Assembly: GCA_023078555.1 (NCBI GenBank)
Contig: CM041199.1
Location: 6,329,315-6,393,314, forward strand
Length of the DNA stretch: 64,000 nt
Direction of reading: 5' to 3'
From: Ulva prolifera
Taxonomy: Eukaryota > Chlorophyta > Ulvophyceae > Ulvales > Ulvaceae
The notes beneath the pieces were generated by a model. That model was not told the origin of the DNA. It did not search any database and worked only from the letters and a program-made list of their open reading frames with translations. The translations under genes and the position numbers were made by a program. This document shows, in pieces, positions 3,310 through 64,000 of the stretch. The first letter of the stretch is position 1. Each line of letters starts with the position of its first letter.

Positions 3310-6300
3310 ATGTCAAACCTGGCCAGCTTCCGGACATCGTCTCGGTCCCGGCGCACAGCAGCGAGATCTATGCTGAGATTACTGCTACTTGCCCTGGCGC
3401 TGGGCGTTGCGGATTGGATATCGAGATGTACAGCTTCTGAGCTGCCACGAGGAGGTATGCAGGTGTGGGATATTGCTGGATATTTGTGCTGAGTAGACTC
3501 TTAACAGGGGCATCAGACCTGGTGCTGCTGTCCAGTATTCACCTGCAATGACCATGGTCATGCATGATCTGCCCTGATGTGCTGATTGCACGTGCCCAGC
3601 GGCTGAGATAGACCTGGATGCATCATGGCTGTGCACACCGTTTCTGCAGCAGGCACTGACACTGTCTGAAGCAAACCTGACTTGATAATCAGGTTATAGC
3701 GAAAGCGAACCTACACAAAGTGAAGTGAGACCTTGGGCTGAGCACCACTCAAGGCCTCTCTAGATGCACTGACCGATGGCATGCAAGCTTTCGCATGCAA
3801 GCTTTCGCATCCTTTGACATCAGCCTCTCTGACCTCCTGCACTTTTGATGATACGGCAGTGCTGCCATGGTGGTGTGGGTGGGTGATTCTCAGTGTTGGG
3901 TCGACTTGCGGCATTTCCAGGGCTGCCACCAACAAAATTAAACCTGAATATTGGGAATTGTTACATATGATCGGGCCCGAGGACCCAACAGTGATTCTAG
4001 GCACCCGGTGGTAGCTCTTCCAAGACATCCCGGCTGCTTCGACTGCCTGACTCTTGTTCTGGCTAGGGCTGACCTCTAAGCTTTTCTGCGGGTGTGGGAG
4101 GTCGAAGCAGTCACGGGGAGACGGGGCTATCATGCACAAGCCTGATTGGTTAACAACTGGCGCCGTCTCTTCGACATGCATGTACCTGTGCACCGGTATA
4201 GCGCGGAACTGGGACTCCCTAGGCCTGCCGGGTTTACTTTGCAGTGCTCAAAGCTGAAGGTGACCCTTCCACCTGAGTCCGAATAGAGACCTGACGCGAT
4301 GAGAGTGGCCGGCGACCGCGAGATCCGCACAAATTCCGAAGGGCCGGTGCATGTGCAGGTCCATCCTCCACCCGGCGCCATCGGCTCGGCACTCCGGCGC
4401 CTGCAGGCAGACACCGAGACGCCTGTGGACGCGTTTGCCGAGGCCGACATCACCGTGGTTACGACTGCGGCGGAGCTGCAGGCGGCCGTGGCCACAGGGG
4501 CGCGGGATGTGCAGCTGCGCGGCCACGTCGACCTCTCCACCCTTGCCCCCTCCTTCACCGGAAACAGCACCAGCGTCGGCATTGTCACCATCCTAGGCGC
4601 GCTGAAGCCCTCGACTCGCTCGATCCGGGTGCGCCTCTGCACGCATGCGCACCATGTATGTCTATGCACTGATCCCCTCCTTCGTTCGGCAGCATCAGGC
4701 CACCAACGGGCATGCCCGTGGTGCCACAAAAACGAATCCTGTACATGTGTGCGAGTTCCATCGACATGTTTGCTCTGCTGTGGTTCCGTCCACTAGTACC
4801 GCTGGCGGTGGCTCTGGTGTTGCTGTTCATGTGCGGCGACCAGGTGCGGCTGCCTACATCCGGCTCTGTCCCTGACATGCAAAATGCATGCATAGTTGAA
4901 GCTAGTCTGCCGAGGCTGCCAGTGCATCCTGAGGCAGAAGTGCTGAGTGTGTAGCGCAGGTGTGTAGGGCAGGTGTGCACATGCGTGTACGTGCAGTGTA
5001 GATCTGTGCCATGGTTGCACCTATGCAAAACCCTTTTCACCGCCGAGACGGAAGTCATACGCACTCGTTGCATGCATACACAGCTAGCCAGCGACAACGT
5101 GCATGTACTGGACGTGATTTTGCATACACATACCAGCAAGGGGCTGCTGCGCAGAGGCCAAAGCATGCACTGGTGATGAGTGTCGATCAGCCAAACAATT
5201 ACGCCTTGTTTGAGCTGAAATAGACACTGGAAGCCGTTGTCTGACGGCCGCGGAACTCCTGGATCACGGGCCTCGTCCCACTGACGACTGCGAGCCCGCG
5301 CGTGCAGGGCAACTGCACGGAGCCGCCGCCGCCGATTGCCGAGCTCGGCCTGTCCGGGCCGCCGCTGCAGTGGCAGGCCCCGCAGTGCCTCATTATCGCG
5401 GACAGCTCCCTCTTTCTCGTGTGGAGCCGGCTGTGGCTGGACGCGCTGTACCTGCGGGCCCGGCCTTCCCGCTGGTACCTCTTCCATTTCATCGCGGCTA
5501 CCGGTGCCGTGTCTACGGCGGACGTGTACGGCACACGCCTGCGCTTCCAAGGCGATGGGCGGTGGAACACGACCGCGATTGACTCCGCCGCGGGGGCGCG
5601 CGTCTACATCCAAGGTGACCCATCTGCTGTCCCTGCTAGGCCTGCCATATAGGCGGGTCTGTGGCCTGAGAACTGTAGAATCCGAACCAGGGTTGCCCCA
5701 GATCGGGTCGCATGATCTGGGGCTGGGATCCAAGTGAATGTCTCATGAGCATGAAGGCACCTGCGGCGATTGCGACGGGTTCAGCGATCGCGAGCAGCAT
5801 CTCCCGGCTCTAGCATTGAAAATGCTCATAATCATGAGGTTATTGATACCTACAACATTGAAAATGGGGCTGAAACGTCCCCTATGTATTGTAGCTAGTC
5901 ACATATGCATGGCGTGCTGCTGGGCCCGGGCGTAAACGGCACTGCCAGTCATGATGGTATAGGCCGCAGCAGGCATGGAGGCCATGTCAGTGCTCGCACG
6001 TGTGACTATGCATGTGCACAATGAACGACGTCATGCAATGATGCCGTAAATGGCCAAAGTCCACGGAAGTACGCGCCCCAATGCTAGACAGCGCCGCGCA
6101 TGGCTGCAGACAGCTCGTTCGACAGCGTCGGCGGCGAGACCCCGACCGTGACAGCCGTCGGGGCCGCCGTCGTCCTCAACCGCACCACCTTCTCCAACGT
6201 GCAGCAGCGCTCCGCGGCGCGGGACTTCTCTGACCCACAGCTCGGAGGCCCTCTCGCCGGGGAGCACCAGGCGGACGGCCTGCATGTTGTCTCCGGCCGC

Positions 6301-9300
6301 ACCGCCTCGCTCGTGACCCTGGTGCGCTCTCTGCAGCCCATCGCAATGCCAAGCATCAGTGGCTGCTAGCTCCCTTGCCCGTAGCGCTCGCTGGCAGAGC
6401 AGGTCCAGTGCGATCTTTGGTATTGCACTCGACAACCACAAGGTACTCTGGCTCGTGTATGTGCATGATTGCTGATGGAAGTACAAGTATATATACGTAT
6501 ATACTACTGCTTTGGACACGCCTGCTTGGAACATGCCTACGGCTCCATGCTCGTTGTAGAGGACGTTCGAGCTTAGCCTGCGGTTCCCTACGGGCGCAGA
6601 GCGGGTGTGTGAATGTCTGTGCAGGACGCCACCTACTCAAACGTCTCCGCAGTCAACCTGTTCTGGGCGTTCGACGATGGCCTCGCGGTGGCTGATGGCA
6701 CTACAGGCGCTGACGATGGCGTGTACACGCCGGAGCGGGGCTCGGCGGAGCGAGCAGCCAACCTGACCGCGCTCGCCCGCCTGCCTCCGGCGCGGGTCGT
6801 GCCGCCGGGTCCTGAAGATGCTTGGTTTGCCATCGCTAGGAGCCAGCTGGTGATTTGCCTACCATCCACCTGGCCTCCGTGGCTTCACAATGTTTCGCAG
6901 TGCATGGCGCAAGCAAACCAGCCTCATGGCTCACAGATTTGTAAGGCGTCGTGCTCAGCTGACTGGGGGCAACCATGCAGCTGTACATACATGTTCCCCC
7001 TGTGAACCATGCAGCGGTGGTGCCTACATGCATGTGCCAGTAATGCTCATCGCACTTGATATCCTCTTGAAGTAAGCTGTGCAGTAGTACTACAGTACAT
7101 AGTATCGCCAGCTGCGGGGACATCAACACCAGCTGCCGCAGCAGGGCCATCCAACACGTGCACAGGGACTGCATGTACAGCCAGTGAGTCCAGCTGCACA
7201 CCAGCAGGGCCACATGCCGATCATCAGTCTTTAGGCAACTAACCATTACAAGCATGCTGGTACAGGCTGTCAGCGCCGTGACCCCAGAGCAGTATCAGCC
7301 CGCGCCGGACCCCCCGCCAAACCCGCCTCCGGCCCCCGCGCCCGCGGTGCCAGGGGATGCCGAGCCGCAGGTGGCCGCGGTGTATTCGCCGGCGCAGTTC
7401 CAGCACGCGTTCCGCACCGGCGCCCGGGACATCGAGGTCCGGGAGCACCTCGACCTCCGCACCCTCGCTGGTGGCGCGCTGGCGTGGCAGGACACGGAGG
7501 CGAACATCGGCGCCGTGCCGGGGACAATCCGGTCGATTCGGGTACGAGGCCGAGCGGCTGGTACATTCAGTATCACACAACCGTGACCGGGTCAAAACAT
7601 ATATGTTTATACACAGCACCTCAAGCTGTCCCACGAGAGCGTGCACACAGTGCGCAGTACACATAGCCGGGCGGCAGAGGTATATACACCCTCTATATAT
7701 AAATATATACTGTCTATAGTATAGATAACGTCCACTACATATGCAGCTGACTCGTGTGTTGGGCTGTGCATGCCGCAGGCCCCGCGGCAGTCATGAGCAT
7801 ACATGTGCAGTCGGAATGAAGATCTTGTCTGGTTTGTTATAAAGTGCGTTTTGGGTTCCTGGAACACGCGTGTTTCAACCAAGGCCCTCATCCGGCGGTT
7901 GCGTTGCAAAACACGTATGTAGCCTGGCTGCGGCCGGGGCGGGTGCTGACGTGTGCAGTTGCATGGGTGTGTTGGCGTGTGCTGCGTGTTGCTGATTGCG
8001 TGGGTGTGCGGCTGTTGCCCCCTGGGTGTTGCCCGCGGTGCTACCTGCCTCGCTCTGTCCTTGTAACACATATACCCTGCAGGACACCTGGTACTGTTCA
8101 TGCATTGATATCAAAACACTGCCCATCAGTCCGCCTGTCTTTGTACCCTTGAAATCAACCCGACCACTACATTTCATCGTGGCCGATCATGCGTACAGGT
8201 CACTCACCAGCGCAATCCTGCTCCCCAACCGCGAGACATATATCCATTCAACTTGCCCGACCACCCAAACTTCGTTCGGTGGGCATGCAGGGCAGGTGCG
8301 AGCAGCAGCCTCCTCGCAACCTCACAGCAGCCGGCCTGGGGCTCAACCTGCAGCACCCGCAGCCCTGGGCCGCGCCGCGCTGCGTCCTCATCACCCCCGA
8401 GACCCTCTTTGCCGTCGAGCGGCCCGGCCTGTGGCTCGACGCACTCCACATCCAGATCGCCCCCCTCCCCACAGTCTCAGACGGCGGAGACTATGATGCC
8501 GACGATGCGGCAGGCGGCGCCTTGGGCTACCTGGAGACAGTGACGGTGAAGCAGTGGGGGTCCGTGTACATCACCGACGTCGTGATTCAAGGCGACAGGG
8601 CCACAAGCGCGGTCGGCATCTCCGCCGAGGCGTCGAGAGTGGGCGTGTTCGTCAAAGGTGTCACGCCATCTAGTAGTTTCACGTGTGCATTGGCGTATCG
8701 GGAAGTGCTTTCACACGTAGGGGCTGGGGTGGCTACTGGTGGAAGGACTACAAGCATGCCTTTCAGGCCATGTGTATTCGCACAGGCCTAGGGCTGCGTG
8801 CGTGGACCCCGCCCCTCCAACTGCGCACACTATGGCATGCTTCAAAGTCCTCCCCTTGCCCTGACCGCCGGGAGCTGCTATCTCCGTGCTGCTCCAAAGA
8901 TTGACCTGTTCAACGGCAAGGCGATAGTGATGGCCTTGCGGGAAGCAGCAGCGCTGGGTTTGGCTGCTGTCCCACCGGCTCACGTTCTCACCTGCTGTAT
9001 ACCTCTCAAATGCCTGAGGCCCTCAGAACAACCATACAATCGCCGACATGTGCGATGAAGTGCTCCTGAATGTGCAGGGTCAGTGTTCTCGTACCTGCGC
9101 GGCCTCCCAGTCAACGGCGTCGCCATGTTCGTGTGGGACACGGCCGCCGTGTTCGACTCGTGCACATTCAAGCGCCTCTCGCAGCCGCCGCCGACCGTCG
9201 TCGATGAGCGGCCGCTGACGATGCGGGAGGGCCTGCCGGGGGTGCTCTCTGTGCGGGGCCTCAACGGGAGCCTGGTCCTGCGGAACAGCTCCTTCGTCGC

Positions 9301-12300
9301 GCCTCGCACCCCGTGGCCAGTCACGACGTTCTACGGAGGCAGTGTGTTCAGCGATGACGAGGAGCTGGCGGTGCGGACCTCTGCTGTGCACCAGTGCGGG
9401 GTCGCTTGGCTGCGTTTTCAGGGCTGCCACCCAGAAATTAGACCTGAATATTCGGAATTGTTACGCATGATCGGGCCCGACGCTGCTGTGCACATGCCGC
9501 CGGTAGACTGCTAGTGTACCGTTGAGCGCTGCGGCAGTGCACGTGAAATCAAAGCTGGCGCCGGGCCCTGCGGCTTCTGCTGTGGCTGTAGCTATATATA
9601 TGATGATGATGATGATATAGATATATCCTCAGGTTGTGTACACAGGCACGAACGCTGCCAGGACATAGTTTAGTACTTGAACCTGCTTCAGACTCACGTG
9701 TGTTTTAGACTGTGCAAACATGACCTGGCCATGGGCACTCGAGCTACAAGTATGCATGTGATCGTGGCAGACGAGCCCCTGCGACTGATCCGATGAGAGA
9801 CCACAACCCAATCTCCGGAACCATCAGAGCCTCAGCAGGCAGCTTCAATGCGCACTACATCCACACAGGAGCTGCACGCCGATCCCAGCCTTGGCCTGTG
9901 GCGAGCTGTCAGATGCATGCACATGTCACCTGTAGACACGGCATGCATGCCGCGGACGCAAATGGCAGATTTCCCTTCCCAGAAACATCACTCCGCGTGT
10001 CATTGCAGACTGTCGGGACGTATTCGTACGAGATTTCCCCTCCACAGCCTCTATCGGAGCTCTCTAAACACACCGCCCCGGGCCGCCGTGCCAGCCTCGG
10101 GCTGCTGGCGGAGGATGACCCCTGGTTCGTTGCGACCCGCAAGGTGCGTACGCGCATGCTACACCAATGTAGTTGGACAGCTCACCATCGCATGTTTCTG
10201 GCAGTAACCTGCTACAGGTCCCCCCGTCAGCTTCAGGGCAAGTGCTTTGTCATTGCAGACTACACACTCAACGGTCTCACATGACTCTCACAGCTGCAGC
10301 CCAAGCATGCGCGCTGGATGCAATGTATAACACGTATTCCACGTGGAACCTCTGCAAAGACGCACTAGGTACCTGTACCGCTGGCCAGTGGCAGGTGTTG
10401 CAGACGGCTTCGGCACTGCCAGGAATACATATGTACGAATGGAATCAGAGGGTACAATGTCCCCAGTGCCTGAAACGTACACGCACCAGATACATGCCTT
10501 CGCCAATGCATGTGATCTCACAGCGGATATTCGTTCTCATAAATACCGCATATTGATGCAGGCTCTGGAGTCGCCAGACAGGGCCCAGTACGACCCGAAC
10601 TTCCCGCTCCACGATGCCGCTGCCATCACTGCCAACAGCAGTATTGTGCCTGTGCCTGGCCCCGAGATCGAGCGTGGTGGCAGCTCGGGGCTGGCTACAT
10701 CAGCCGTCGTCTCGCTCGCGGTGGGCTGTTCCGCAGGGCTGCTGCTCGTGCTGGGGTTGCTTCTGCTGGTGGCACAGAGGCGGCGCAGGCGTCGTGGCTT
10801 CAAGGGTCGCCGGGCGCTGGCCTCGCATAGCACCGACCTTGAGGTGTGCATTGTCGTACCTGCCAACAACATGCTAAATGCTGTAGTGCTTTCAAAGCTG
10901 CCATTCGGGCTGACTCTGTGCTTGTGATCTGGGCGCCCAGCCGGCTAGCCTAGCCGCTAGGTGAGTCGAAGAAAGCATGTAACTTTCCAGGGGTACGAAA
11001 GCTGAATTTTTGGGCGATTGAGCATCAATCGAATTCTTTGCGGTGTCCACAGTTCTTTCCGCAACTGCCAAGTATGTACACTGGCAGCTATGTAAAGTGA
11101 TTTTGCATGTCGTCAAGGCAAAGCTGCCTATCCACAACCGTGCAGCCCAAGGGTGTCTCTTCAACGCATCCAGCGTTTGCAAGTGCAGCTCTCTTGCAGA
11201 ATGAGCACAGGGTGGACGGCGGCAATGCAAACGGGAAGGGTGCGACGGCGGCGCCGCTGAGCGTGGAATTCTCTAGCGCACCCTCCCCCGACCTGTCGGC
11301 GGCGGACCGAGACCCTCGAGTCTCCCTCAACGCTTCCACAGTCACTGCTACATCGGTCACGACAATGACCAAGCAGGACTGGACGGACTTCCAGAGGTGC
11401 ACGCACTTGCTTCTGTTCACAATTTCTGGCTTTGGCTGCTGTTGCCAGTCGCACAGCGACCTGATCCTTGTGGCACAATATAAATTAGAGCTGACTGCGT
11501 ATCAAATGCTTCACTGCAGCATGTAAAGCATGGTTGGGTCGAGCCCGATCCCCCGATGTCGGGATTGTTCAAATTGGGCCTGATAAATCGGGAATTTTCG
11601 GCTAGATCCGGATAAGCAAATTGAATATTTAGGGATGTCTACAACTGGACGCACATTGTAAAGATGGTAGACGTAGATCTCTGTGTTTGGACTGACGCTT
11701 GCTTTGCGCATCCAACAGCCCTGGCGACAACTAGATGACGGACGCATGTGCAGCAAATCACAAGTTCGCATATGTGCGTGCCAGTAGACAAACGTACTTG
11801 TTCACACAGAGCAGATTCATGGAGGCGGCCATGCAGGCTGGCACGGGAGGCAGGGTCGGCCCTTGATGAGCTGGAGGTGGCATTGGACGCGATGTACAGC
11901 ATGCAGGCGCCCTTCCGCTACCGCTACATGCTCCAGTCCTCTGTCTACCGCCGCATCGGTGGCCAGGGCGTCGTGCAGATCGCGGACATCGCCGGCACGC
12001 ATGACCGGGTGCGCTGCTGCTGCATGCAGTGTCTGTCAATCGTATCGCGTGCCATTTCCGCGTGATCTGACGCTGCTGTACGCCGGGTCGACGTCCCCGG
12101 TTGGAGGCCCCACTGGTATCAGAATTAAATGTTCAGCAATCAAGTAGCGAGATATCGATACATGTCTCTGAGAAAGGCAGCTCATGACCGTCACTGGACA
12201 AGCGGACAGCAGCACGGCGCCGCGGGTTCACATTAACTTCATGCAGGCGGCGATCAAGTTCTACCTCGACGCCGCAGCCTACCGGCGGGAGCGGAAGCTC

Positions 12301-13826
12301 TACACCGAGTCGCAGCTGCGCGAGATGATGCCGGCGACCCTCGACATCGACGACAACGCGTCAGGGGAGTGCTGCACGCCGTTCGGGTACACCTTCCCGC
12401 CGTACGTTGTCATCGAGTACGGGCAGAGCATGAACGAGTGGGCTCAGCGCAACGAGAACAAGGACTTCATCACCATCTTCCAGGTGTGAGTCCCCGAACG
12501 TCTGAGCGCGAGCGGCGTTGGCGTCGAGTTATTCTTACACAGGCGCTGAAGCCGTGCCATGCTCTGTGGCGAGTCGAGACACCTCCCTGTTTTGGAATCG
12601 TCTCTGTGCGACCAAGTGTGTGCAGCGTGCTGTGCATTCTGTGCGTGCTGTGGATGGGTGCCGCGGAGGCACTGTAGAGCAGCTTCCTCAGAGTGCACCT
12701 TCTTCGCAGGCTGCCGTTTATGGTGCCGCTCAGGCTCTGAGGCTCTGGTTATGGCATGTCTTCACGTGCTGACCTGTTCTTAACATCTTGTGCCGTCAGG
12801 AATCACTGTTTCTGTCTCAACATATCATGACAAGTTGGCACAGTTTGTACCGAGCGGGTTGTTGCGATGGTTTTGTGGCACTGCAGGCACTCAGCCATGC
12901 GGTACGGGCTCTCGCCAGGCTGCACGCATTCGGGTACGCCCACCGGGACATCAAGCCCGGCAACATCCTCCGCCGCCCCAAGCAGCACGACTGGACCCTC
13001 ATCGACTTTGGCTGTGCTGCAAAGATAGGTACGATGCTCGGGCCGCACTGCGATAGTCCACAGCAGCATGGTCGAGAGTGCATGGCATGAGCATGCGCAT
13101 GCGATGCACTCTCAGAGTAGTGCTCCAGGTGGTTCAGTCAGCAGCACCAAACATCACACAGCTTCGATTGCTGCCTTGGCAAGCTGGCTTGCGGATCGTG
13201 CCGCTGGGCAGGCCTACATGCTCTCCTCACATTGCACACCTACCAGAAGGCCTGACGGTGGTTTCATACTATCACAAGTAGTACACTATCCCAAGAACAA
13301 GCACTGCCCTCCTGACCAGCCTCAATATTCGCTGGCCTGTGTGATGCCTGTGGATGCATGTACAGGCAGCATCGCCGGCCTGAGTTACTCTCTCAAGTAC
13401 GCCGCCCCAGAGGTCGTGCACGCCGTTGAAGCAGAGAGCCACACCATCGTCTGCACCGCAGCCGTCGACATCTGGGCAATCGGCGTCATCGCCTTTGAGC
13501 TCCTCACCGGCGAGCGTGCCTTTCCGGGGGAGGTGCTGGGGTCGGCAGAGGCGGAGGAGCGCGCCCGCGACGCCCTCGCCGGGCGCGCGCTGCTGCCGTG
13601 GGAGGGCCGGGGTGCGGCCGTCGAGGGCCGGCTGGAGAAGCTGCGGGGGCTGCGGCGGACGGTGCTGCGGTGCCTGGAGCGCGACCCCGCGAAGCGGCCG
13701 TCCGCGGAGGCGCTGCTGAGCTCGTGGGAGCATGCATTTGACAACATGCAGACGCATGGCACAGACTGGAGCGCTGATGTAGATGATGGCGGTGGTGAGC
13801 GGGAAAGTGGAAATGTGAGGCTCTGA
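3310..13826 (+). CDS. Gene A: receptor-like protein kinase with duplicated beta-helix-like ectodomain
   Basis: Fifteen exons with compatible phases give about 1,293 residues: 3310-3454, 4306-4628, 5308-5614, 6110-6321, 6625-6849, 7266-7541, 8291-8657, 9078-9385, 10009-10143, 10562-10843, 11200-11396, 11810-12008, 12181-12483, 12887-13028 and 13366-13826. Exon 1 encodes a signal peptide (core LRLLLLALALGV); an internal in-frame ATG at 3,370 is an alternative start. Residues to about 765 form two homologous modules, each with an AELQ/AQFQ exon, an LWLDALxI exon, an FDS exon and an exon ending AWF/PWFVA. A transmembrane segment lies near residues 809-837, followed by an Arg run and then a kinase with all key motifs. 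Secretion to the plasma membrane and signalling by phosphorylation are inferred; the ligand is unknown. The exon 2 acceptor is the least certain boundary. Confidence 0.85.
3779..3808. repeat. Short tandem duplication in gene A intron 1
   Basis: A unit of the type GCATGCAAGCTTTC occurs twice in direct succession. This is a small example of the many GCATGCA-type motifs in the introns of this window. Confidence 0.7.
3883..3998 (+). mobile_element. hAT-type MITE, copy 2, in gene A intron 1
   Basis: The element is 3,891-3,990, exactly 100 bp, from CAGTGTTGGGTCG to GAGGACCCAACA. It has a perfect 8-bp target duplication GTGATTCT at 3,883-3,890 and 3,991-3,998. This is the cleanest copy of the family and fixes its ends. 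Confidence 0.9.
4306..6849 (+). other. Gene A ectodomain module 1 (exons 2-5)
   Basis: The four exons read, in order, VVTTAAELQAAVATGARDVQ, then LIIADSSLFLVWSRLWLDAL, then SSFDSVGG with NRTTFSNV, then NLFWAFDDGLAVADG closing at AWFAIARS. The alternation of short hydrophobic strands with Asn/Ser-rich turns resembles right-handed parallel beta-helix (pectin-lyase-like) proteins; this is a fold inference, not a recognised named domain. N-glycosylation sequons are frequent (for example NCT, NTT, NRT), as expected of a secreted region. Intron phases after these exons are 0, 1, 0 and 0. Confidence 0.75.
8009..8065 (+). repeat. Single arm of the GCGGTGC repeat family
   Basis: The stretch reading GCGGTGCTACCTGCCTCGCT and then CTGTCCTTGTAACAC matches the arm of the elements at 2,264 and 14,629. 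No convincing partner arm was found nearby, so this is a solo or degenerate arm within gene A intron 6. Confidence 0.5.
9384..9493 (+). mobile_element. hAT-type MITE, copy 3, at the edge of gene A exon 8
   Basis: The element is 9,392-9,485 (94 bp), starting CAGTGCGGGGTCGC, with a perfect 8-bp duplication CTGTGCAC at 9,384-9,391 and 9,486-9,493. The predicted donor of exon 8 (GT at 9,386) falls inside the left target duplication, so the insertion sits essentially on the splice site and its duplication repeats the donor on the far side. Confidence 0.85.
9592..9627. repeat. TA and GAT simple repeats
   Basis: A (TA)n stretch is followed by about five GAT units and more TA-rich sequence within gene A intron 8. 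No function is inferred. Confidence 0.8.
10562..11396 (+). other. Gene A transmembrane and juxtamembrane exons (10-11)
   Basis: Exon 10 begins ALESPD, as do the matching exons of genes B (ALASPP) and D (ALKSPS). It encodes a hydrophobic helix of about 28 residues (AVVSLAVGCSAGLLLVLGLL) ended by QRRRRRR, a strong stop-transfer signal that puts the C-terminus in the cytosol. Exon 11 encodes a Ser/Thr/Pro-rich juxtamembrane stretch, a plausible phosphorylation target. Confidence 0.75.
11810..13826 (+). other. Gene A protein kinase domain (exons 12-15)
   Basis: All catalytic signatures are visible in order: glycine loop RRIGGQGVVQIA (about residue 975), ATP-binding lysine in QAAIKFY (about K1018), hinge PPYVVIEYGQ, catalytic loop HRDIKPGN (D about 1114, N about 1119), metal-binding DFG (D about 1133), APE in KYAAPEVV, DIWAIGVIAFELL in helix F, and a closing ERDPAKRPSAE arginine. 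HRDIKPGN, with Lys after HRDI, points to Ser/Thr rather than Tyr specificity. Nothing essential is missing, so an active kinase is predicted. Four exons divide the domain, one boundary lying between the glycine loop and the lysine. Confidence 0.88.
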
Positions 13827-50559: not shown

Positions 50560-50649
50560 CCCAGCCTCCCGATCACATGTAACAACTTTGAATACTTAGG
50601 TCCAATTTCTGGGTGGCAGCCCTGGAAATGCGGCAAAGCGACCCAACAT
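50560..50649 (-). mobile_element. hAT-type MITE, copy 4, in gene D
   Basis: This copy is in reverse orientation relative to copies 1-3. It includes TTCTGGGTGGCAGCCCTGGA and ends GCGACCCAACAT. The other end is degraded, and no target duplication is clear. Confidence 0.65.
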
Positions 50650-51722: not shown

Positions 51723-52716
51723 TTTTTGGTGGCTGGAACTTGAAAGTGCGTATGCGATCGCTGTTTGTGTGACCGGAGGTCGATTCCTTCTGAATTTTTG
51801 AGTAGTCTCTGAGCAGGTTTGGTGGAGCTACAAGAGAAAATTACAACATGCCAAGACCTTTCAAACAATCAGATGCTGCTCGTCCAGGTATGCGTTGCTG
51901 AGTAGCGAGCGAGAGTCGATCGAGCCGCTCACTCGACCTTCTTGTGCACGCACCCGCGTCCGCTAGCATCGCCGCGCCGTGAACCGCTGCACACACTGCA
52001 TAGATCTGTCGATTTAGCAGCTGCACTGCGTGTTCACTTGTTCCTAGAGTCCTCGAGTGCAGTGTGTACGGCTGGTCCGGGCGCTCGACATGCTCTCTCA
52101 TCGAGCCCCGTGAGCCTCACCTGCCTCGATTTGTCACGAATCATACAAACGCATTGACACTGCAAACATCTGTGATTGTTGCAGCCTTTGTTGTGCATCA
52201 TTGTGCTTGCCGCACTGCTCTGCATTGCCTGCACGCTCACTCGCACCGTAACCCAGGTGTCATCGCGTAGGGGTCATCATTGCACCCTATTACCAGTGAC
52301 TACAGCGTCACGTAGCACCCTGACATCAGCACTTGTGCACACAAGCATCAACTGAGCTTGCATCACGACACGCACAAACTAACCTTGCATTGTGCCTCGC
52401 GTCGAGCTGTGCTCCGTGCCGCGTTGAGCTGTGCTCCGTGTTTCCATCGTAGCGTCTGTGCTAGCGAGCTCCAGCCACCGGCTGTTGAGCGTTTGTAGCT
52501 ACACAGTTAACTCGCGGCCTCGCCGTAGCTACTGATTACCGCGTGCGTTGGCCCCTTGTGTCGCGCCCCGCGCTGACCTAGCCGCGTGCTGTGCAACGCG
52601 CGAGAACAGTCTATAAGGACCACCCTCTGACACCAACTAGTGGTGAAGGGTCAGGCAAGTCGGCCTGCTAGTCCTAAGTGTACCATCACTTACTCCGGAC
52701 ACGGCTATTAATTGTC

Positions 52717-55700
52717 ATGGCTGCCCTACAGCAGATGTCACAGCAAGAGCTCCTGCGTGCGATTGTACAGGACTCACAAGCTGCACGCGCTGAGTTGACG
52801 CAGTCCATTCAGACACTGTTGGCGCAGGCCACCACGCATACTGGCATTATTTCTCGTGTGAGTGAGCAGCAAGCCAGCATCAGGATTGCCCTTCAGCAGA
52901 GTGAGGATAGGCACCGTGACTTGCACAATGAATTGCTCGAGGAGATTCGTGCTCTCCGAAACGACATCACTACTCTTTCACGAGCTGCGGCGGCAGAAAC
53001 GACCGCTCAAGCCGAGTCCCGGTCTGTACTGGCAGCGGTGTCCGCGCGAGTTCAGGCATTGGCCAACGTCAGCACTGGTTCGTCCTCGTCGACGTCCGCA
53101 CCATATGCATCCGGCACCAGCCTGCCCCCTTTGGTCACAGACATTGATCTGCTCGACTTCACTAGTGGGTTGCCACGTGCATCGTCCGGCTTGCCAGCGC
53201 ACCACCTTCCGGTGTCGGCGGTGATGCCGCCGCGTCTGCCTTCGCAGGCCTCGTGTGCGTCTCCGGTGCCTGTCGCGGCATCAAAACCACCGGCACCAGG
53301 TGCAGCTGCGATCGTCCACGCGGAAGACACAGGCACACGGGCAGAGGCTAAAGCTTCGTTGCTTGCTGCTGGTATCACCTCGGACGCCGCTGTTACAGAA
53401 CTCATGACCATGCTTGATTCCGCAGACGATGAGAAAAATCCTACCAAACGCCTAGCTTTGGCTGAGTTTTGGGGGAAAACTTTAGTGGACAAGTCGTTGC
53501 AATTTGTGCACGGCGTCACGGACGTTGGTGACTGGCTGGCACGCGCCCACGAGACTTCTGTGAAGTTTCGCGCATTTGCTGCACGGTTGCCGGGGGTGAT
53601 TTCGGACAGGTGGATACATGACCGCTTGTTGGCCATGTTCCCGGTGGAATTCCACGTGCGCCTGAGCGCGTCCAGCGATGCGAATCGCACCCCGGAAACC
53701 TTGCTGCGTTTAGTGCGGTCCAACTTCCAAGACAAACATTCGGAGTTGGCGACCAGCCTCACTATGCTTCCAGACCGGCACATGCAACAGCCGGACAAGC
53801 TGTTCACGCGTCACATAGACGATAATGTGCGTGTGTATAGATTGCACAACGTGCGCGCCAAACTTACCCCGGCGCTGTACATAACGTTATTTGGGGGTAC
53901 ACATCGCGCCGACACGCTCGGTCGCGTCTTCCATACTGTGGCTCGCAAACACTTGCTTGAGCAGGGCATCACGGAGACATCCGACGAGTATAACTTGGGG
54001 GATCTAGAACCCATTCGCGCGTTGTGCCATATGCTTGATCGTGAGCAAGCCGAGCATTCATCACAGCCCCGGCGTGCTCCTTCGGTAGCTGCGTCTGCAG
54101 CTGTCGCCGGGAGTGGTTCAGCTCCGACAGAGCGGGGCACTCCCACCGGGCGCGGCAGAGGTCGCGGCCGTGGCCGTGGCGGTGGTCGTGGTGATCGCGC
54201 CCCTGGCCCGGTTTGGGACCAGCCAAACGCGAACCAACCGGTCCAGCAAGATTTCTCCCCTGACATGCTGATGGCGTCTGATCCACATATGTCAGTCAAC
54301 ACCAATGCTCTGAGCGCGCACATGTCCACTGCAGTCGTGGCAGCGGTGAATTCGCATGCCCTCCAGCACGGCCGCTCCCCAGCCGTTGGGCCCACCGTGT
54401 GGCCGCTTAAAGACCATTGGGAAATGTTGGCAGCGAGCGTGGAGCCGGCAGCAAAGCCAGGCCATGCTTCGGTCGCTGCTGCCACGCGCTCCCGCAGCAC
54501 AGTTGAGTTCAGTCCTACTGCCCGCGAACGCTCATATGATCCTGAGGAGCAACCTCGTACCATATCAGCGCAGCCCCCAGTGGAAGTGCCGTTGAAGAGT
54601 CTGGACGCCACGGCTCCCACGCCTGTCCAGGACGCGCCTTCGGCACTCCCGATTGTTGCGAATAAGGTGGAGTCCGCTGCCCGCTCTGGCGCGGATGACC
54701 GCGCAGCTACGGCGGGGGGGCACAAAGGCAGACGTAACAAGCGCACAAAGACGCCCTCCCCTGCTGGCGCCAGCAGCTCGCACGGCGGCACTACTGATGC
54801 TCTTGCTCAGAATTCTCAAGATGGGGTCATTGCCCCTCCCGTGGGTGCCAAGGAAGTGCACCCAGCCCGCCTAGCGCGGAAGCCGTCGGCACGCCGGCCC
54901 AATTTGCAAGCGGACCGCGGGGATGTGTGTGATGAGCAAGACTCCGACACAGTCGCTGCGCGCCGAGCGCACCTCGATGAGTTCCGTCGCGAAATGGCAG
55001 ATCGTAAAGTGCCCACGCGTGTGTACCGCGCAATTCTGCAGTCCACGGTCACCCTTTCTCTGGCAGAGTTGGCTGCGCTCGCTGTGCATGACCGACTTGT
55101 GACGCTCCTTGTGCAACTTGCCGAGACGCTGCGTGAAGCGGACGATGCTCATGCGCTCGACGGCCCACGCAAACGCGTTGATGCTGTCCTGGCTGCCGCG
55201 CTCCGTCGAGTCGTGACTGCCCATGCCGGCGCCACTCCGGACACGATGAAAGTGTTGGCTACTGCCATTTCCACGTGCGCAGACCCTAGCGGTGTCAGCG
55301 CTCGGTGGTCCAAGATACTCTGTTCCAGCGCAGAATGGACAAAAGTGCCGGGCAAGACTACAAACTTTAAAGTTCCGTTCGCTGGCATGCGGAAGTGCAC
55401 GGGGTTCTTGACATCTCAGGTTCCCCGCGCCGGCGCGCCAAATCACCCTCAGGGGTTGAAAGTCGCTTTCGATGAGGGCGCAGAACTCAATACCATCACC
55501 AAATCTGCCTGGCAGAAGCACAAAGCGGATTGGGAAAAGGGTCACCCTGCATTCAATGACAACCATGACATTGGCGAACCTCATGGTGTTAAAATGCAAC
55601 AGCCTGTCACCCTCACTGGTTTCCATGGGGACGCGACGCGGCATGACCATATGGTTCTAATTCACTTGCGCCTTGGTTGTGCGTGCTATCCAGTGTATTG

Positions 55701-56013
55701 TACGCTCGTCGACGTCGCCCCGGCAGATGTTGTCCTCGGACTTGGGTTCCGCAGGAAATTCAATGCCCCCTATCCGCCGGCATACCCTTTGTCGCAGTCA
55801 ATGGGAGTAAGTTCCATCTGCCCGGGCGTGCCAAAAGGATATGGGCTGTATTTCCCAAAAGGGCTTCAAAATCTGTTTCGGGGCCGCGACCCCGCTGATG
55901 CTGGGTTCTGCCAGATTCTCCATCTCCAGACCCCCTGGATGACATGGAATGTTACCGGCAAACGCCTCACGCCCACGCAACTCAGTGGAGCCGTCACCGA
56001 TGCATCTCAATGA
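52717..56013 (+). mobile_element. Gag-protease frame of the LTR element
   Basis: The first ATG of this frame is at 52,717 (MAALQQMSQQELLRAIVQDS), giving about 1,098 residues. The N-terminal part is predicted alpha-helical and Gln/Glu-rich (coiled-coil-like). A capsid-like central part is followed at about residues 473-498 by a Gly/Arg run (TGRGRGRGRGRGGGRG) that takes the place of the usual CCHC zinc knuckle as nucleic-acid-binding region. A retropepsin-like site VAFDEGAELNTI lies near residue 918, with the partner motif VVLGLGFRRKF near residue 1006. The frame overlaps the pol frame by 70 bases in the -1 frame, as in families that use -1 frameshifting. Confidence 0.8.
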
Positions 56014-59000
56014 CTGAGTTGAGAGTGTCTGCACGGCGCTGGGTCCGCTCGTTTAAAGACCCGTCCCCCACAAATGCTGCATTGGCGGGTGTTTTCGATA
56101 GCATTTCGAAGGGGACATATAACTGTTCCATAGACTCTCAGGGTTGTGCCCTTGTGGATATGGCCTTAGGCAGCAAAGCTTTCTGCAAGCCGCGCTTGCC
56201 CTTTATTATTACACCAGTCATCGACGGTGGTGATTTAGTGGGTGACGAGTTCGCCCACGTCAACTCGTGTTGCAGGTCGCACACGATGTGTGACATGCCT
56301 GAGGAGGGGGAGGACACTGCGACACAATCTTCGTTACGTGTGCCTGACCCTTCACACGACCAGGCGCTAGGTTTTGACCCTGGCGCAATTCCGGAGGAGC
56401 ACCGCATCCTGATCGAGGCTGCACCTCCCGGAAATAATTTCACGGAACTGCCGAAATCTGCAGCAGCTTCATGCGCGGAGCATTCAGGCGTGCCCCGCAC
56501 ATTCTGTAGGCGTACTCAGTATCACCTTAGGCAAAGGCAATTGCGCACAGAAGAGTCTATCCGCAGAGCCGCGGTCGAGAAAGCACAACTCGCCAGTGCC
56601 ACAGCGGAGGTAGCTCAAGTCACGAGCGACCAGCTCACAGACGAGCAGACTCAAGAGCTACAAGCTCTGATTGAAAAGCACAAGGACCAGATCTCTTGGG
56701 ACCCTAATGACATTGGGTGCCTATCTGAGGATTACAAGGAGTTCTACCTCCAGATTCCCACGGAGGAAGGTGCCAAATGTAAGCAGAGGCCTTACAGGCT
56801 CTCATACAAAGAATTGGAAGCTTTCAGAACGCAAGTTTCCCTGCTCTTGCAACAGGATGTTATAAAGAAAGCTGACGGTCCAACCGACTTTCTCTCTCCG
56901 GTGCTATTTGTGCCGAAGCCACGTAAGCCGGACGAGCTGCGTATGTGCGTAGACTTCCGCAGATTGAATGCTGTGTCGAAGCGCGACTACCATGCCCTCC
57001 CGCATATCCGTGACCTGCTTCAATCCATGTCCGGCTGTAAATACTTCACAGCCCTAGATTTGACCTGGGGATTCTGGGCCCTTCCAGTGGTCGAACAGGA
57101 TCAGCACAAAACGGCCTTTACGGGCCCCGATGGAGAAGTTTATGTCTGGACGAAGGCTCCTATGGGTCTCTCCAACTCGCCTGCTGCCTTCCAACGTCTC
57201 ATGGCACATGTGCTGAGAGATATCAAAGGCGTGTCAGTCTACATAGACGACATCACAATCTTCTCCAAGACATGGCAGGAGCACCTCAGCATTCTTGCCA
57301 GGGTGTTTGAGAGACTGCGCAAGTCAGGTCTGAAGGTTAAATATGCCAAATGCGTCTGGGCAGCTGCGGAGTGCCGAGTACTGGGCTCTATTGTCAGTGA
57401 GGCCGGCATTGCGCCCGATCCTGACAAAGTGGCTGCGGTAAACAAGCTGCCGGTGCCTCGAAATGTTGCGGACGTTCGCAGCTTCTTGGGTGCCACTGGA
57501 TATTTCCACGAGCACATACAAGCGTATGCGGACAAGTCAGCACCTTTGAGGGCGCTGCTGAAAAAGAACGTGCAGTTCATCTGGTCTGAGGAATGCCAGC
57601 GCGCCTTTGAGCAGCTAAAAGCTGACCTGGTGTCTCCGGCGTGCTTACGCATGCCAGACCCAGAACGACCGTTCATTCTCACCACAGACTGGTCCAAACT
57701 AGTTGTTGGTGCGGTTTTGAGCCAGATCCAGCCAGAGGATCCAACAGATCCGGACTCTGCAGAGAAAGAGTATGTCATAGCGTACTCTAGCAGATCTCTG
57801 AACCAAGCTGAGAGCCATTATGCTCCCACGGAAGGGGAGTGCCTGGCCCTTGTATGGGCCACCAGAAAATTCAGACCGTATTTACACGGCTACAAATTTC
57901 GTGTTCGCACTGACCACGCGGCCTTGAAATGGTTGTCCACGGCTCGCTTCGAAAATTCTAAGCTAGAGCGATGGGCGATGCGCCTGCAAGAATTCGACTA
58001 TGAAGTTGAATACCTGCCGGGAGATCAAAATGTTGTGGCCGACCACCTGTCGAGACACTACTCCCACATGGAAGCGGGCAGCGTGACCGCAGTTGCTGGT
58101 CACCTGGCCTTTGCCACCGAGGGCCGCGTTCTTGATATTGAAGACGAGGGCCGTGATGTGTTCGATCCCCAGTCATGGTGCATGCATAGCCTGCAGGAGC
58201 TGTGGTCATCGGGCGACACGCAAGCAAAGAACAAGCAACCCTGCACCATTTGCGGTGCTGCAGAGGGTTACGCTCACATGGTGTTATGCGATACCTGCAA
58301 CCGGCCATACCACCTGCAGTGTATGCACCCCCGACGGTCTGTGGTACCCGATGGAGCGTGGCACTGCCATCAATGCGATGAAGCGTATTCAAACGTCGAC
58401 GAAGTCCGCCGCAACGACCCTATCTTGTTTGCGCGGCGTGGAGATCCGCACCACCCAGATCTAGTGGATTTGGTACGTGCGTATGTTGAGCGACAGGAGC
58501 GGGCAGTGGTCGAGTCCTTGAACTGCAATGCATCAAGCGGTGACCGCGACCCGGAAGCAGCGTCGCAGCACGCGCGTGCTGCGGCGGAAGCAGTGTTCCA
58601 CCCCGATATGCCCAAAGCGCTGAAACGCAAAGTCCGTAAGAAGGCTGCCACCTTGCGATTGCATCCGACTCGCCCAGAATGGCTGCTCGAGCATACGCAA
58701 TTGCGCACCGGCGACCGTTTGTGGCTAGCAGTGCCCCCTGTGGAATTCCGCTGGGGACTGATTGGAGCGTATCATGATCGCATGGGACATGCCGGCGTGA
58801 GCCAAAAACTGGCCGTGCTGCATCAGCACTACCATTGGCAAGGCATCAAGCTAGATGTAGCAGCTTATGTTGAACAGTGCCATGCTTGCCAAGTCAAGCG
58901 GTTGGAATTGCAACATGTGGCAGATGTGCAGCTTCCCCGCATGAGCAAGCCGTTCTGCCATGTGCACATTGACCTGGCTGGCCCGTTTCCCCTCCGTGAG

Positions 59001-59972
59001 GTGAAAGCGGCGCCAGTGCGTGGCAAGGCAGGGCGCACCAAAGCCACCTTGTCCACGGCACAGACCGGCCAAGGGTATGTGTGCCTAATGGTGGATTATT
59101 TCACAAAGGCAGCGGAATTCGCACCGCTGCGAGACAAGAGTGCCGACACAGTCGCTCGTGCCGTGCATGACTTCTGGTTCATGCGCTACGGCATCCCGGA
59201 ATGGGTGACCACGGATAACGGGACAGAGTTTGCTGGAGCCTTCCGGCACCAGCTAGAACGGTTTGGCATTGACCACGTCCAGACCTCTGCATACCATCCC
59301 CAGTCCAACGGCGCCGTCGAGCGACTCGTGCGCACAATGAAGACCATGTTGGCGGCAAAAGTTGCCGGTGCCATCCATGATTGGCCCGCGCTGCTTCCGC
59401 AGACACGCATGGAATACATGCAACGCCGGCATACAGTGACCGGTTATGCGCCGAATGAGTTGGTGATGGCACACCGCCTCCGGCTGCCACCTCCGGTGGG
59501 CGCGCGCGATGCGCACCCCCGCATGGCAGCCGTCGAGATTTCTGCCATGCCCGAGGACGATTATGTGCGTGCGCGCGACGCCCGCGCAGAGCGTGTGGCT
59601 GCGCGCGTATACGATTGCATCCTCCGTTCGCAGCAACGTAATGCTGACAGGCAAGCCCACCTTCTGGCCATTCGCAAGCCTAGGAGGGGGAGGAAATTGC
59701 AAGCTGGAGACCTTGCTTATGTCCTAGAACGCGGACTGGGCAAGAAAAATGCGGTCACAGGCCCATTTGTTGTCGAAAGCATATCTGAAAATCAGGCTTT
59801 CCTGCGTACAACGCGCCAAGTGCCAGGTCAGGAAGTGCGCCACTTTCCAATACACTTAGAACGTGTGGCCCGATGCACGACTGTGACGGACGTGTTAGAG
59901 AAGCTCTTGCACGCCGCAGGCATGTCGATGCGGCCACCGCCCGATCACGCGGCGGCGCAGCTCACGAGCTAG
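55944..59972 (+). mobile_element. Pol frame of the LTR element: RT, RNase H, PHD finger, integrase
   Basis: The frame is about 1,342 codons. Reverse transcriptase spans about residues 320-490 (MCVDFRRLNAV, ALDLTWGFW, SVYIDDITIFS). RNase H is at about 575-670 (TTDWSKLVVGAVLSQ, PTEGECLALVW, RTDHAAL). A C4HC3 PHD finger is at about 766-811 (CTICGAA, CDTCNRPYHLQC, WHCHQC). An integrase HHCC zinc domain is at about 942-985 (HDRMGHAG, CHACQ). The catalytic core has D in HIDLAGPF (about 1,010), D in TTDNGTEF (about 1,090) and E in SNGAVERL (about 1,126). The C-terminus has a GPFVVESI barrel-like segment and no recognisable chromodomain. Confidence 0.9.
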
Positions 59973-60016
59973 CGCACGCTGGCCCCATCGGCGCCTTTGT
60001 AAGATCATGACATGAA

Positions 60017-60238
60017 TGTCGTGGCCTAGCTATGTAACTGAGCCATGCTCGTTGCTAGCATTGCTCGAGCCAGCGCAGCTGCGCGCAAATGCACTCACGC
60101 TGCGTGCATCCGTCTGCACATGCATGCATGCGCGACTGTGCGCTCAGCCGTGCCATCAGCTCTGATGCACGCTTGTCTCTGCACTGCTTGATGCAGTTGC
60201 AGTGCTCATAAGCCTTCTCATCCTTGAGGAAGCTCGGC
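60017..60238 (+). repeat. Right terminal direct repeat of the LTR element
   Basis: Partner of 51,501-51,722. The 45 bases between the pol stop and this repeat contain GCCTTTGTAAGATCATGACA, which also occurs in the host exon edge at 60,653-60,672. That points to a local duplication or a complex insertion event. Confidence 0.8.
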
Positions 60239-60652
60239 CGATTGGGGCTGAGAACGAAATTAAAATACTATCAATTACATCGGGATGAACGGCCTCTATG
60301 TTGTGACGTGCCGAGCTGACAGTGAAGAATAGGCAGTGCTCTGTGTTATGAGCATGTAAGGAGAAGCAAAGGCGTCGGTGCGGTGCGGTGTTGAAAGGGA
60401 GTGTAAGATGGTGCATTTAAAGTAATAAAGATATCAAGATACAAGATTCAAGTTCAAGTCAAGCAGTACCAAGTCAAGATCAAGCAAGACTGGCGTTCTC
60501 ATAGGTACTTTAGGGCATTGTATTAGCACTTAAGACTGCATCAATTCGCATGGTGACAGTTAGTTCAGCTTACTCCCTATTACTTGAACTCATAAGCTTT
60601 TGTTGTCTAGGCCACTCACATGCCTAGCTGCCTTGGAACCATCCTGGTTCAG
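60239..60652. other. Sequence between the LTR element and gene D exon
   Basis: AT-richer than its neighbours, with a CAAG/CAAGT-rich stretch at about 60,432-60,489 and no gene. It may be original gene D intron or the end of another retroelement. Confidence 0.45.
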
Positions 60653-61083
60653 GGCCTTTGTAAGATCATGACACCCCCCGCGCAGTGGTCCGCCCACGCC
60701 GCTGCCGCCAAGGCCACGCCGTCGCCCTGGATGGCTGTGTTGGTGATGTATACGGCCGCCCACTCGACCAGCCTCACCGCCACAAGTCCGCCGTCCTGCT
60801 CTTCGAAGTTGTACCTGCAGCGACTTCGATGGCCGAGCTCAGGAGTCAGTACCAGCATCGGCATACTCCGTGCATGCTACTCATAGGGCTCCATGGTAAA
60901 GCCTGTGCTAGCAGCCTACAAACAGCAGCTGGGCATGTGAGCCGGGTCCGTCAGGCAACGGTGGTTTCACACGGTCAGTGCGGCAAGGGTGTGGATTAAT
61001 ATTCGGCCGCCCGGCGCAGTCTGGTGGCGCAGCTGGGGACCCACGTGTTGGGATGCCTCGGGCGCGGCTGCGATGATAACATG

Positions 61084-61201
61084 ATGTGAACCAGTGTTAA
61101 GTCGACGGGCCCGATCATATGTAACAATTCCGAATATTCAGGTCTAATTTCTGGGTGGCAGCCCTGGAAATGCTGCAAAGCAACCCAACACTGATCTGAA
61201 C
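61084..61201 (-). mobile_element. hAT-type MITE, copy 5, in gene D
   Basis: The element is 61,092-61,193 (102 bp), from CAGTGTTAAGTCGACGGG to GCAACCCAACACTG. It is flanked by ATGTGAAC (61,084-61,091) and ATCTGAAC (61,194-61,201), 7 of 8 identical. It sits inside the stretch that splits the LWLDSLHIQ exon of gene D from its VYITNTAIQGD part; in gene A and gene B these are one exon. Confidence 0.85.
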
Positions 61202-61845
61202 TCCCGAGTGTGTGCGGAGGTGGGTATGCCATGCATATGTCACACAGACTCTATGTGACAGTGACTGGGTTCCTGTGTTTGGGTGTGCGTGGAGGGAAGC
61301 TGTGGGAAAGAGCGTGGGCACTAGTAGCATCAGAGTGTGTGTGCATCGGTGAGGCCGCATTGGGGTCTACGTGTGCAGCCTACGGCGTGAACGCGTTGTG
61401 CTGGGTTGGTGGACGTGACTCTGAGCCGCTCCCTGTTCCCACGGTGCAACCTGCCTCACTGGTTCGCTCCTTGCAACACGCGGTCAAGAGACTGCAGACG
61501 GTAAACAGAGAGCGGTCAGTGATTAGACTGCACAGCAACTTTGATTGCCCTGCCGGGCGGGTGGCATTCAGGGCTCCTGGACACATGAACCCACAGCCAT
61601 GCCCAGCAGCGTACAAACGTTGGGTCGCCTTGCAGCCAGGTACCAGGACCAGCACGAGGAAATCTTCTATATGATCGGGTGTCACGGTGTATGACGAGCC
61701 AGCACTGGTGCCGAGCGTCATGTAGGCCTGAATGGCCAAAAGACACACAGCAGGTCTGGTCTGCACACAGAGCTGCGTGGAAACTCCAGACCTCAAACGA
61801 CATCCAGCCTCCGACACCAGTGCAGGCACAATGAAAAATAGACAC
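61202..61845. other. Inserted or intronic sequence unique to gene D
   Basis: No gene, repeat or RNA was recognised. Together with the MITE it separates two parts of an exon that is continuous in the paralogues, so it is either a gained intron or an insertion. Confidence 0.4.
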
Positions 61846-63664
61846 CAGATGTTCAAATGCGCACGAGTAGTGAAATGCGGGTCCATAATCGGGTCCATAA
61901 GCGTCGTAGCCTGCGCCGGCGAAGTCCAGCGCTGGGGCAACCTGGATGTGCAGGGAGTCCAGCCACAGGCCGGGGCTGCTGGCCACGAGGAGCTGCTCAG
62001 CCACGGCCAGCACGCAGCGCGGGGCACGCCAGGGCTCCTCGGCCGGGATGCTGGCGCCAAGGCCTTCAGGTGTTAGGCGAGTCAGGGGCGGACCCTCGCA
62101 TCGGCCCTGCAGCAGGGCGGAGCTGATGCCACTTCAACAAGATGGCAATGCAGTGCACTGGTCGCATCTGCCAATTCATCATACACATGCACAACATTGG
62201 TGAGTCTCGTGGTGGATGTGCCACCCAGGTAAAGCAGGTGTGTGCACAGACAAACGAAAACCCTACAGCGTCGGCTCTGTGGACTGCACTTGGGAAGATC
62301 ATGACCCCCTCCGTCGAGGAGAGTCGTTGATTGCAGCGGGTCATTTCTGATTTTTTTTATTTTGACTGATTCCGAGTCGAATGAAGAGAACTGCAGTGCG
62401 ACTGCACACAATCATGCAGCCGAACCTGAGTGATATCTTCTCTACGGTGGAGTCGTTGCTGTAGACCTCATACCTGAAATCGGGCAAGGACAGTTCTTAC
62501 CACTGCATCCGTACACACCCAGTGGCAGCTGGAGCTGTCCATGCATACCATGCATTGCGTAGCAGCGGGCAAGAAAGCGAGAAACACAGTGAAAGAAAAC
62601 ATGCATGTATGCCGGCATGCTGCCTTCCACAGCTTATAAGCCAATTAGCACAGGTGCCTGTCGAGTCGGAGGGCACACCCGGATGGAGCGGGTCCCTCTC
62701 CCCACAACCCCGAGCTGGTACAAACGCCCCCGGCTCACGGCCCGTCACAGGGTCCTCCCACCGCGGCAGACCTCGAAGGTCGAGGTGGCCGCGGATCTCG
62801 ATGTCGCGCACCCCCGCGTGGAACGCGCGCTGCAGCTGCGCCGCACTGTACACCGCGGCGATCTGCGGCGGGGCCCCGCCGGGCACCCCCGGAGGCGGTG
62901 GCCGCGGAGGATTCGGCGGGGGCTCCGGTGGATCGTGGATCTGCCCCGGCTGTGCTCCCCCAATCGCCTGCGGTCGGCACGCAGTTCAATCGGAACAGCG
63001 TCTCGGCTGTGTTGGTTGCTCGTGCACTCGTGTGCCTGCCTGCATGCATTCGTGCGCATGCTTGTGTACACGCAGAAAGCCACGAGAGGCGGTGGCGCGA
63101 GCCAAGCGATTCAGACCCACCTCTTGCAGTGCCACGAACCATGGGTCGCGTTCCGTCGCGAGTGGGACGCGGATCTCAGGGCACTCATCGAGCGTGGCCA
63201 CTGGGGCCGCCGGTGAGGTTTCCGTGACCCTGGTGAATGTGCCATCACCAATGCCGTGGCTATACTATAGTCGTAGCTGACCGTACACATCCTCCTCTGC
63301 GCCGGCCGTGCCGTCCACGACCAACAGGCCACCCAAGAAGGATGAAAACAGTTGCCCGCCCGCAGTCGTTACGTTCAACTGTGAAGTTCTCAAATGTTGT
63401 GTTTCGCATGCACAGCCACCAGGTGCAGTTCAGATACATGCGCCTTGCAGCGTCATGCGTGGCGCGTACAGCCGCACGGTGCTGTATGTGTGGAGGAAGC
63501 GCAGCCGCGGCTGCCGCGACGGCTGGGCCCGCAGGAATAACGCGTCCAGCCACAGCCTGCCTCCATCTTCCACGTTGAAGATGCCGTGATCTGCGATGAG
63601 GACACACTGTGGGGCCCGCCAGAGGAAGGGGGGAGCGCTGAGGCCCCAGTCTTCGACAGGCGGC

Positions 63665-63686
63665 GGGGGGGGGGGGGGGGGGGGGG
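63665..63686. repeat. Poly-G run of 22 bp inside a gene D exon
   Basis: On the coding (minus) strand this C run encodes most of a nine-proline stretch after GNCA. The length given keeps the downstream VEDWGLSAPP in frame. A change of one base would break it, so the run is both biologically slippery and error-prone in assembly. Confidence 0.85.
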
Positions 63687-64000
63687 CGCAGTTGCCCTGC
63701 ATGCATGGCGCTGGATATGTGTGGGTGTGTGCATCGGTGCTGGCTCCGATTCGCCTGCAAAATTTGTTTGTGGCTGCCGACCAGAGATCAGACCTGGTCA
63801 CAAAAAGTACACATTATGCTAGTACCGGGTCAAAAGTCACTTCAAATATACTCGCTTGGCACTTGCACGTACGCGTGCTGCCGGCAGCACTCCATCCAAA
63901 TTGCCTATAGCACAGAGGCTGGCCTGCAAGATTTGATGCTACATATTGACGATGCGCAGAGTTGATGTGCATAGATCATATGGAGTCAGGTCACAAATAC

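Follow-up and report, generated by a model that had tools for sequence, protein, structure and literature searches.

A tandem cluster of receptor kinases and kinase-less relatives in the green seaweed Ulva prolifera

Results

The stretch of Ulva prolifera DNA analysed here (64,000 nucleotides, C4:6329315-6393314, hereafter the window) carries three members of a receptor gene family, A, B and D. A sequence-only reading of the window had described them as three paralogous receptors that share one ectodomain and end in three different cytoplasmic domains, apparently exchanged by swapping 3' exons. Coordinates are those of the window unless given in Mb of contig C4. Gene models of A and B were spliced by GT-AG rules, and the signal peptide and transmembrane helix were judged from sequence.

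Gene A, on the forward strand, comprises 15 exons that encode 1242 residues in an open frame with GT-AG introns. Exon 1 (3310-3462, the MLRLLLLALALGVAD stretch) provides a hydrophobic, signal-peptide-like start. Exons 2-5 (4359-4628, 5308-5614, 6110-6321 and 6625-6849) encode ectodomain module 1, exons 6-9 (7266-7541, 8291-8657, 9078-9370 and 10009-10143) encode module 2, and exon 10 (10562-10843), which ends in phase 0, encodes the transmembrane helix. Exon 11 (11200-11396), which ends SLNAST..TDFQR, is a shortened linker by the comparison given below, and exons 12-15 (11837-12008, 12247-12483, 12887-13028 and 13366-13826) encode the kinase. The kinase domain matches PF00069 (E 7.5e-24), which bears out the earlier claim of a full protein kinase in A. 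PF00069 outscores PF07714, and among the 60 PDB matches listed the best are GSK3-like. The Lys, HRD and DFG motifs, which we take to be those expected of a kinase, are present. Signal peptide, ectodomain, one helix and cytoplasmic kinase thus stand in a single gene, the layout of a transmembrane receptor kinase. The division of the ectodomain into two modules was also read correctly: in A they match one another (27% identity, E 2e-18), the intron phases of the first recur in the second, and the tree separates the two at 100/100.

Gene B lies on the reverse strand. Ten exons were found, with an open frame and GT-AG introns, and they encode 1069 residues from a start chosen within the first found exon, the acceptor of which is 201 bases upstream of that start, at 45653. 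The first three exons (45653-45261, 44973-44673 and 43858-43647) encode ectodomain sequence homologous to A; five more (21160-20924, 20241-19957, 19292-18968, 18426-18140 and 17655-17533) complete module 1 and encode module 2. They are followed by the transmembrane exon (16812-17312) and by a tail exon (15868-16614) that encodes 248 residues and a stop. The length of this tail is as first read; in composition it is rich in Pro, Ala, Gly and Tyr, where Pro, Tyr and Gly had been named. The 5' half (45653-43647) and the 3' half (21160-15868) are one gene split by a 22.5-kb intron (21161-43646), because the exons on either side match exons that are adjacent in A and the intron is in phase 0 on both sides. 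A and B do align exon by exon, as had been claimed, from the first module to the transmembrane exon, and exons 2-10 of A end in the same phases as the nine corresponding exons of B (0,1,0,0,0,1,0,0,0). A signal-peptide exon of B was not found upstream, where the one candidate, at 46576, is poor. The large intron bears a 94-bp tandem satellite (22706-39046; 172 copies, an array of about 16 kb) and a second tandem array with periods of 61 to 341 bp (41115-42037). The 94-bp unit also forms arrays on further contigs (at least 569 matches; those listed are on C1-C5 and C7-C10).

Locus D, on the reverse strand, was delineated by comparison with E, a near copy of it (L034, L035) that lies 4.6-11.5 kb past the window, at 68.6-75.5 kb in window-extended coordinates. 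The 5' part of D (60674-63696) holds a remnant of exon 3 (63696-63441), exon 5 (about 63425-63106), exon 6 (62967-62675), exon 7a (about 62109-61880) and most of what is seen of exon 7b (60824-60674); the 3' part (49467-51500) holds the end of exon 7b (51500-51465), exon 8 (about 51174-50890), exon 9 (about 50545-50374) and the transmembrane exon with a short tail (49895-49467). The first exons lie beyond the window. Relative to E, D has lost exon 4 and the last part of exon 3; exon 5 contains an in-frame TAG, exon 6 a 4-base insertion, and exon 8 deletions of 28 and 7 bases. D is therefore a pseudogene, with frame-disrupting lesions against an open paralogue. Of the claim that it aligns exon by exon and ends in a short tail, the tail stands; the alignment is broken by these losses and frameshifts and by a long terminal repeat (LTR) retrotransposon.

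This element (51501-60673, forward strand; outer bounds taken from the broken exon) is placed inside exon 7b of D because the end of exon 7b of E matches both of its flanks; a short G run is repeated. It has 240-bp direct repeats (51501-51740 and 60017-60256; 96.7% identical), which fall short of its far end and leave about 417 bp unexplained. Its forward-strand reading frames (52678-56010 and 55899-59969) encode reverse transcriptase, RNase H, a PHD finger and integrase. An additional dispersed repeat of about 80 bp occurs at 50568-50648 and 61110-61190, with similar copies at about 3.9 and 9.45 kb. It is found in introns of this receptor family and genome-wide (863 first-look candidates, 42 matches), and is possibly a short mobile element.

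The frame of E is open from exon 2 to exon 10; E has usable splice sites and ends in the same short tail as D. Where D has GTA, a possible donor, E has GTT, and the transmembrane exon of E therefore probably runs to its stop. About 1.3 kb separate this stop from the next copy.

Genome searches (88.9 Mb, 44 contigs) with the ectodomain of A (69 matches), the ectodomain of the Ulva mutabilis protein P0005 (66) and the kinase of A (114) delimited a tandem cluster of about 390 kb at 6.333-6.726 Mb, and the window is its edge. A, B and D are thus related as first described, but the membership is larger, with at least 17 ectodomain loci (A, B, D, E, F, H, I, K1, K2, J, L, K3, K3b, K4, M, N and O) over 6.33-6.73 Mb. 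Genome-wide searching, a form of which the sequence-only reading had proposed as a check, also allowed the cytoplasmic domains to be tabulated: same-strand kinase exons lie downstream in 12 of the 17 loci (the counts are lower bounds), and five, B, D, E, K3b and I, have none. K3b (6.666-6.671 Mb) is a truncated wreck containing stops and I (6.5854 Mb) a single-exon fragment. Two further kinase loci, at 6.4856 and 6.7004 Mb, are not paired with any ectodomain match. Outside the cluster, the A ectodomain gave three weak matches, on C3, C5 and C2.

Six U. mutabilis proteins, P0001-P0006, were the only relatives that came up in a very large protein database, in keeping with the earlier description of a receptor family of an alga with different cytoplasmic outputs; two of the three protein searches scored only about 8000 candidates sharing most words, so that relatives elsewhere were possibly missed. 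P0001-P0003 and P0005 have receptor kinase architecture, in the order transmembrane helix, linker, kinase that is also that of K1-K4. P0006 (596 residues) terminates within module 2 and appears incomplete. The gene model of P0004 includes neither linker nor kinase. Both E and P0004 show what defines a receptor-like protein, the shared ectodomain, a transmembrane helix and a short tail with no kinase; B does likewise with a longer tail.

K1-K4 have, behind the transmembrane exon, an exon that carries a Pro/Gly-rich linker and ends in a kinase-proximal motif; the kinase exons come next. A phase-0 donor follows the transmembrane exon in A, B, K2, K3 and K4; that of K1 was not pinned down. The assertion that the cytoplasmic switch always occurs at this intron holds for A and B, but in D and E the tail lies inside the transmembrane exon itself, and both end before the linker exon. 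Exon 11 of A shares homology with the linker exon: z is 7.5-11.6 for seven of the eight linkers compared and 2.8 for that of K4. Most of the linker itself is missing in A. The tail exon of B occupies the slot of the linker exon and is similar in composition (22.6% Pro, 14.9% Gly, 19.8% Ala and 8.5% Tyr; the eight linkers have 7.7-25% Pro, 13.8-22% Gly, 11-20.3% Ala and 0-6.8% Tyr). No clear kinase remnant was found downstream of B (best E 0.10) or D (best E 0.02). Taken together, the shortened linker of A, the position of the B tail, the stop of E and D before the linker and the lack of a clear kinase remnant behind B or D point to truncation of a kinase-bearing ancestor, not swapping of 3' exons, as the probable source of the differences between the tails.

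E and P0004 form one clade in the trees of both modules (98/98 and 99/95). If the P0004 gene model is right, a kinase-less, short-tailed form thus existed before the two species separated, and this form probably works. E and B are open in all exons found, with conserved splice sites and synonymous distances above 1 from other members. The kinase is probably ancestral, since a receptor kinase on C2 (L064, C2:7439500-7448420) with an apparently single ectodomain module has the same layout of transmembrane helix, linker and kinase; its single module is perhaps the older form of the family. On C5, the same kinase type (L065, C5:3909500-3919499) stands behind a different ectodomain with PAN similarity below Pfam cut-offs, and that stretch starts with a long TG/CA repeat. 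Of three loci examined outside the cluster, two combine the kinase with other ectodomains, and in the third (L066) the ectodomain was not identified; where shuffling is seen in the wider family, it is at the ectodomain end.

Paralogues are 38-62% identical in the ectodomain and 67-86% in the kinase. Among A and K1-K4, four-fold sites agree in 346 of 874 comparisons in ectodomain exons 2-8 and in 482 of 854 in kinase exons 12-15; agreement expected by chance in kinase exon 15 is 0.33. As parts of one gene should share a synonymous clock, the higher agreement hints at conversion between kinase halves, or at composition. Two of the ten pairs (A-K4 and K1-K2) show no or almost no four-fold deficit in the ectodomain. 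Exchange is also suggested by a tree of kinase exon 15 alone, in which K4 groups with K3, J, L and the fragment Mb (92/89), but not by that of all four kinase exons, 12-15, for which K3 and K4 as one clade gave an approximately unbiased (AU) test p of 0.0497.

The ectodomain has no Pfam family above cut-off, and its alignment profile gave no convincing sequence match among solved structures. With low confidence, module 1 is predicted to be a pectate-lyase-like right-handed parallel beta-helix. In this predicted fold it would resemble pectate lyases and other pectin-lyase-fold proteins (1jrg, 1ooc); it differs from them in sequence, at 16% identity, and in belonging to a membrane receptor, not an enzyme. 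This hint of a beta-helix leads us to propose that the ectodomain may bind or sense polysaccharides.

Discussion

As a whole, the data are best explained by an ulvophyte receptor-kinase family with one ancestral architecture and three outputs, among them kinase-less co-receptors or decoys, in a cluster that grows and decays by duplication. We consider this explanation likely, with a good deal of room for doubt. The full form would consist of a signal peptide, two tandem modules that are probably beta-helices, one transmembrane helix, a flexible Pro/Gly-rich linker and a Ser/Thr-type kinase. A would retain the kinase but little of the linker, B would retain a linker-like tail without a kinase, and E, like the wrecked copy D, would end just past the transmembrane helix. 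Kinase-bearing members (the A and K types) may bind wall or microbial polysaccharide and signal, and kinase-less members (E, perhaps B) may bind the same class of ligand and act as co-receptors or decoys. The architecture, the cluster, the absence of a kinase in B, D and E, the decay of D and the existence of an E-type relative in U. mutabilis are observed; the direction of change, the ligand, signalling and the co-receptor or decoy role are our inferences.

The output could instead have been changed by swapping in unrelated 3' cytoplasmic exons at the intron that follows the transmembrane exon, as the sequence-only reading had proposed. The shared phase-0 intron would permit such exchange, and the higher four-fold-site agreement of the kinase halves is what exchange between members could give. 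The whole-kinase tree, however, unites K1, K2 and K3 (97/97), as the module 1 tree does (92/90). Exon 11 of A is an ordinary linker exon, E and D have no exon that could have been swapped in, and no foreign cytoplasmic domain was seen on any of the eight members with two modules that were read (A, B, D, E and K1-K4). The tail of B sits in the linker position with a similar composition, but it can be matched to linkers by composition only. Aligned with the eight linkers it reached a z of at most 2.2, with no residue-level homology; with the kinase-proximal linker end removed, z was at most 2.4 (P0003, 6 of 400 shuffles), and the best ungapped match (K2) was equalled by 41 of 1000 shuffles. Genuine linkers fail in the same way: the 16 comparisons between U. 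mutabilis linkers and those of K1-K4 gave z from -0.6 to 2.5, and within the genome K1-K2 gave 15.4 and the other five K1-K4 pairs -0.4 to 2.2, against 9.8 to 23.3 among the four U. mutabilis linkers themselves. The alignment test thus succeeds with close linkers alone, and it leaves the homology of the B tail neither proven nor disproven. We regard exon swapping as very unlikely.

That kinase-less copies are all decaying, non-functional duplicates is a more serious objection, which we nonetheless judge unlikely. D is a wreck, K3b is truncated with stops, a lone exon remains at 6.5854 Mb, a satellite occupies an intron of B, and the search for a first exon failed in both B and E; against this, B and E remain open in the exons found, their splice sites are conserved, their synonymous distances to other members exceed 1, and the clade of E and P0004 spans two species. 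The least credible of the alternatives is that the kinase-less form is ancestral and the kinase was gained later by some members. The module 1 tree, in which A, B, E, P0004 and P0006 make up one side of the first fork (98/93), would be compatible with late gain. A and K4, however, carry the kinase although the module trees place them apart from the main kinase group, and the single-module receptor on C2 already has the transmembrane-linker-kinase layout.

Several points weigh against the truncation of an ancestral receptor kinase with beta-helical modules, in addition to the low alignment scores of the B tail. The structure model is poor (mean predicted local distance difference test score, pLDDT, 43.7; predicted template modelling score, pTM, 0.37), Foldseek gave no match at E 0.001 (best 1.7e-3), and Pfam Beta_helix was reached by two of four proteins, at best with E 0.0094, below the cut-off. 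The first exon of E was not found upstream of exon 2, and B, with its satellite-bearing 22.5-kb intron and a signal exon that was not found, may be dying. A 1.3-kb search after E gave a kinase-like match (E 1.3e-4), which we tentatively take for composition. The absence of a kinase in P0004 is that of a public gene model. Among the 12 kinase-bearing loci, A and K1-K4 were read, K4 with exons 4, 5 and 9 not identified, and the other seven pairings of ectodomain and kinase were made by position and strand alone. Two independent losses of the kinase were considered and are not forced: a single origin of the kinase-less state in B, E and P0004 is not rejected for module 1 (AU p 0.415) and is weakly present in the module 2 tree (73/53).

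Kinase-less relatives of receptor kinases are known in plants and animals (PMC13425104, PMC3820611). The cluster resembles land-plant arrays of receptor-like kinases, such as the Arabidopsis OAK cluster, in being a variable tandem array (PMC3136440); the ectodomain here is less conserved than the kinase. The two differ in that the algal ectodomain matches no Pfam family above cut-off and in that the best solved relatives of the kinase are GSK3-like, RLK/Pelle membership being putative. E-type members share with the tomato Cf receptor-like proteins (PMC13425104) an ectodomain, a transmembrane helix and a short tail with no kinase; unlike those, they are not leucine-rich repeat (LRR) proteins by any test made, and they lie in the same cluster as their kinase-bearing paralogues. 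FGFRL1, the kinase-less animal FGF receptor, likewise has the ectodomain of its kinase paralogues and no kinase (PMC3820611), but its ectodomain is unrelated to the algal one and its origin presumably independent. No title among the literature matches listed concerns the present family, a check that did not extend to the treatment of receptor kinases in the U. mutabilis genome paper.

Little is known of how green seaweeds sense walls, bacteria or mates at the molecular level. It is conceivable, though we would not call it probable, that the cluster is a fast-evolving recognition locus of green seaweeds, in which tandem-beta-helix kinases would read polysaccharide codes of the alga's own wall, of microbes or of mates, and anciently conserved kinase-less paralogues would tune the response as decoys or co-receptors. 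The whole would be a receptor/co-receptor arrangement that arose apart from land plants, with a lyase-type fold serving as its sensor. Clustered receptor kinases, a kinase-less relative in two species and a probable carbohydrate-type fold provide named genes for testing, and the family would be an instance of the pairing of receptor kinases with kinase-less relatives outside land plants and animals.

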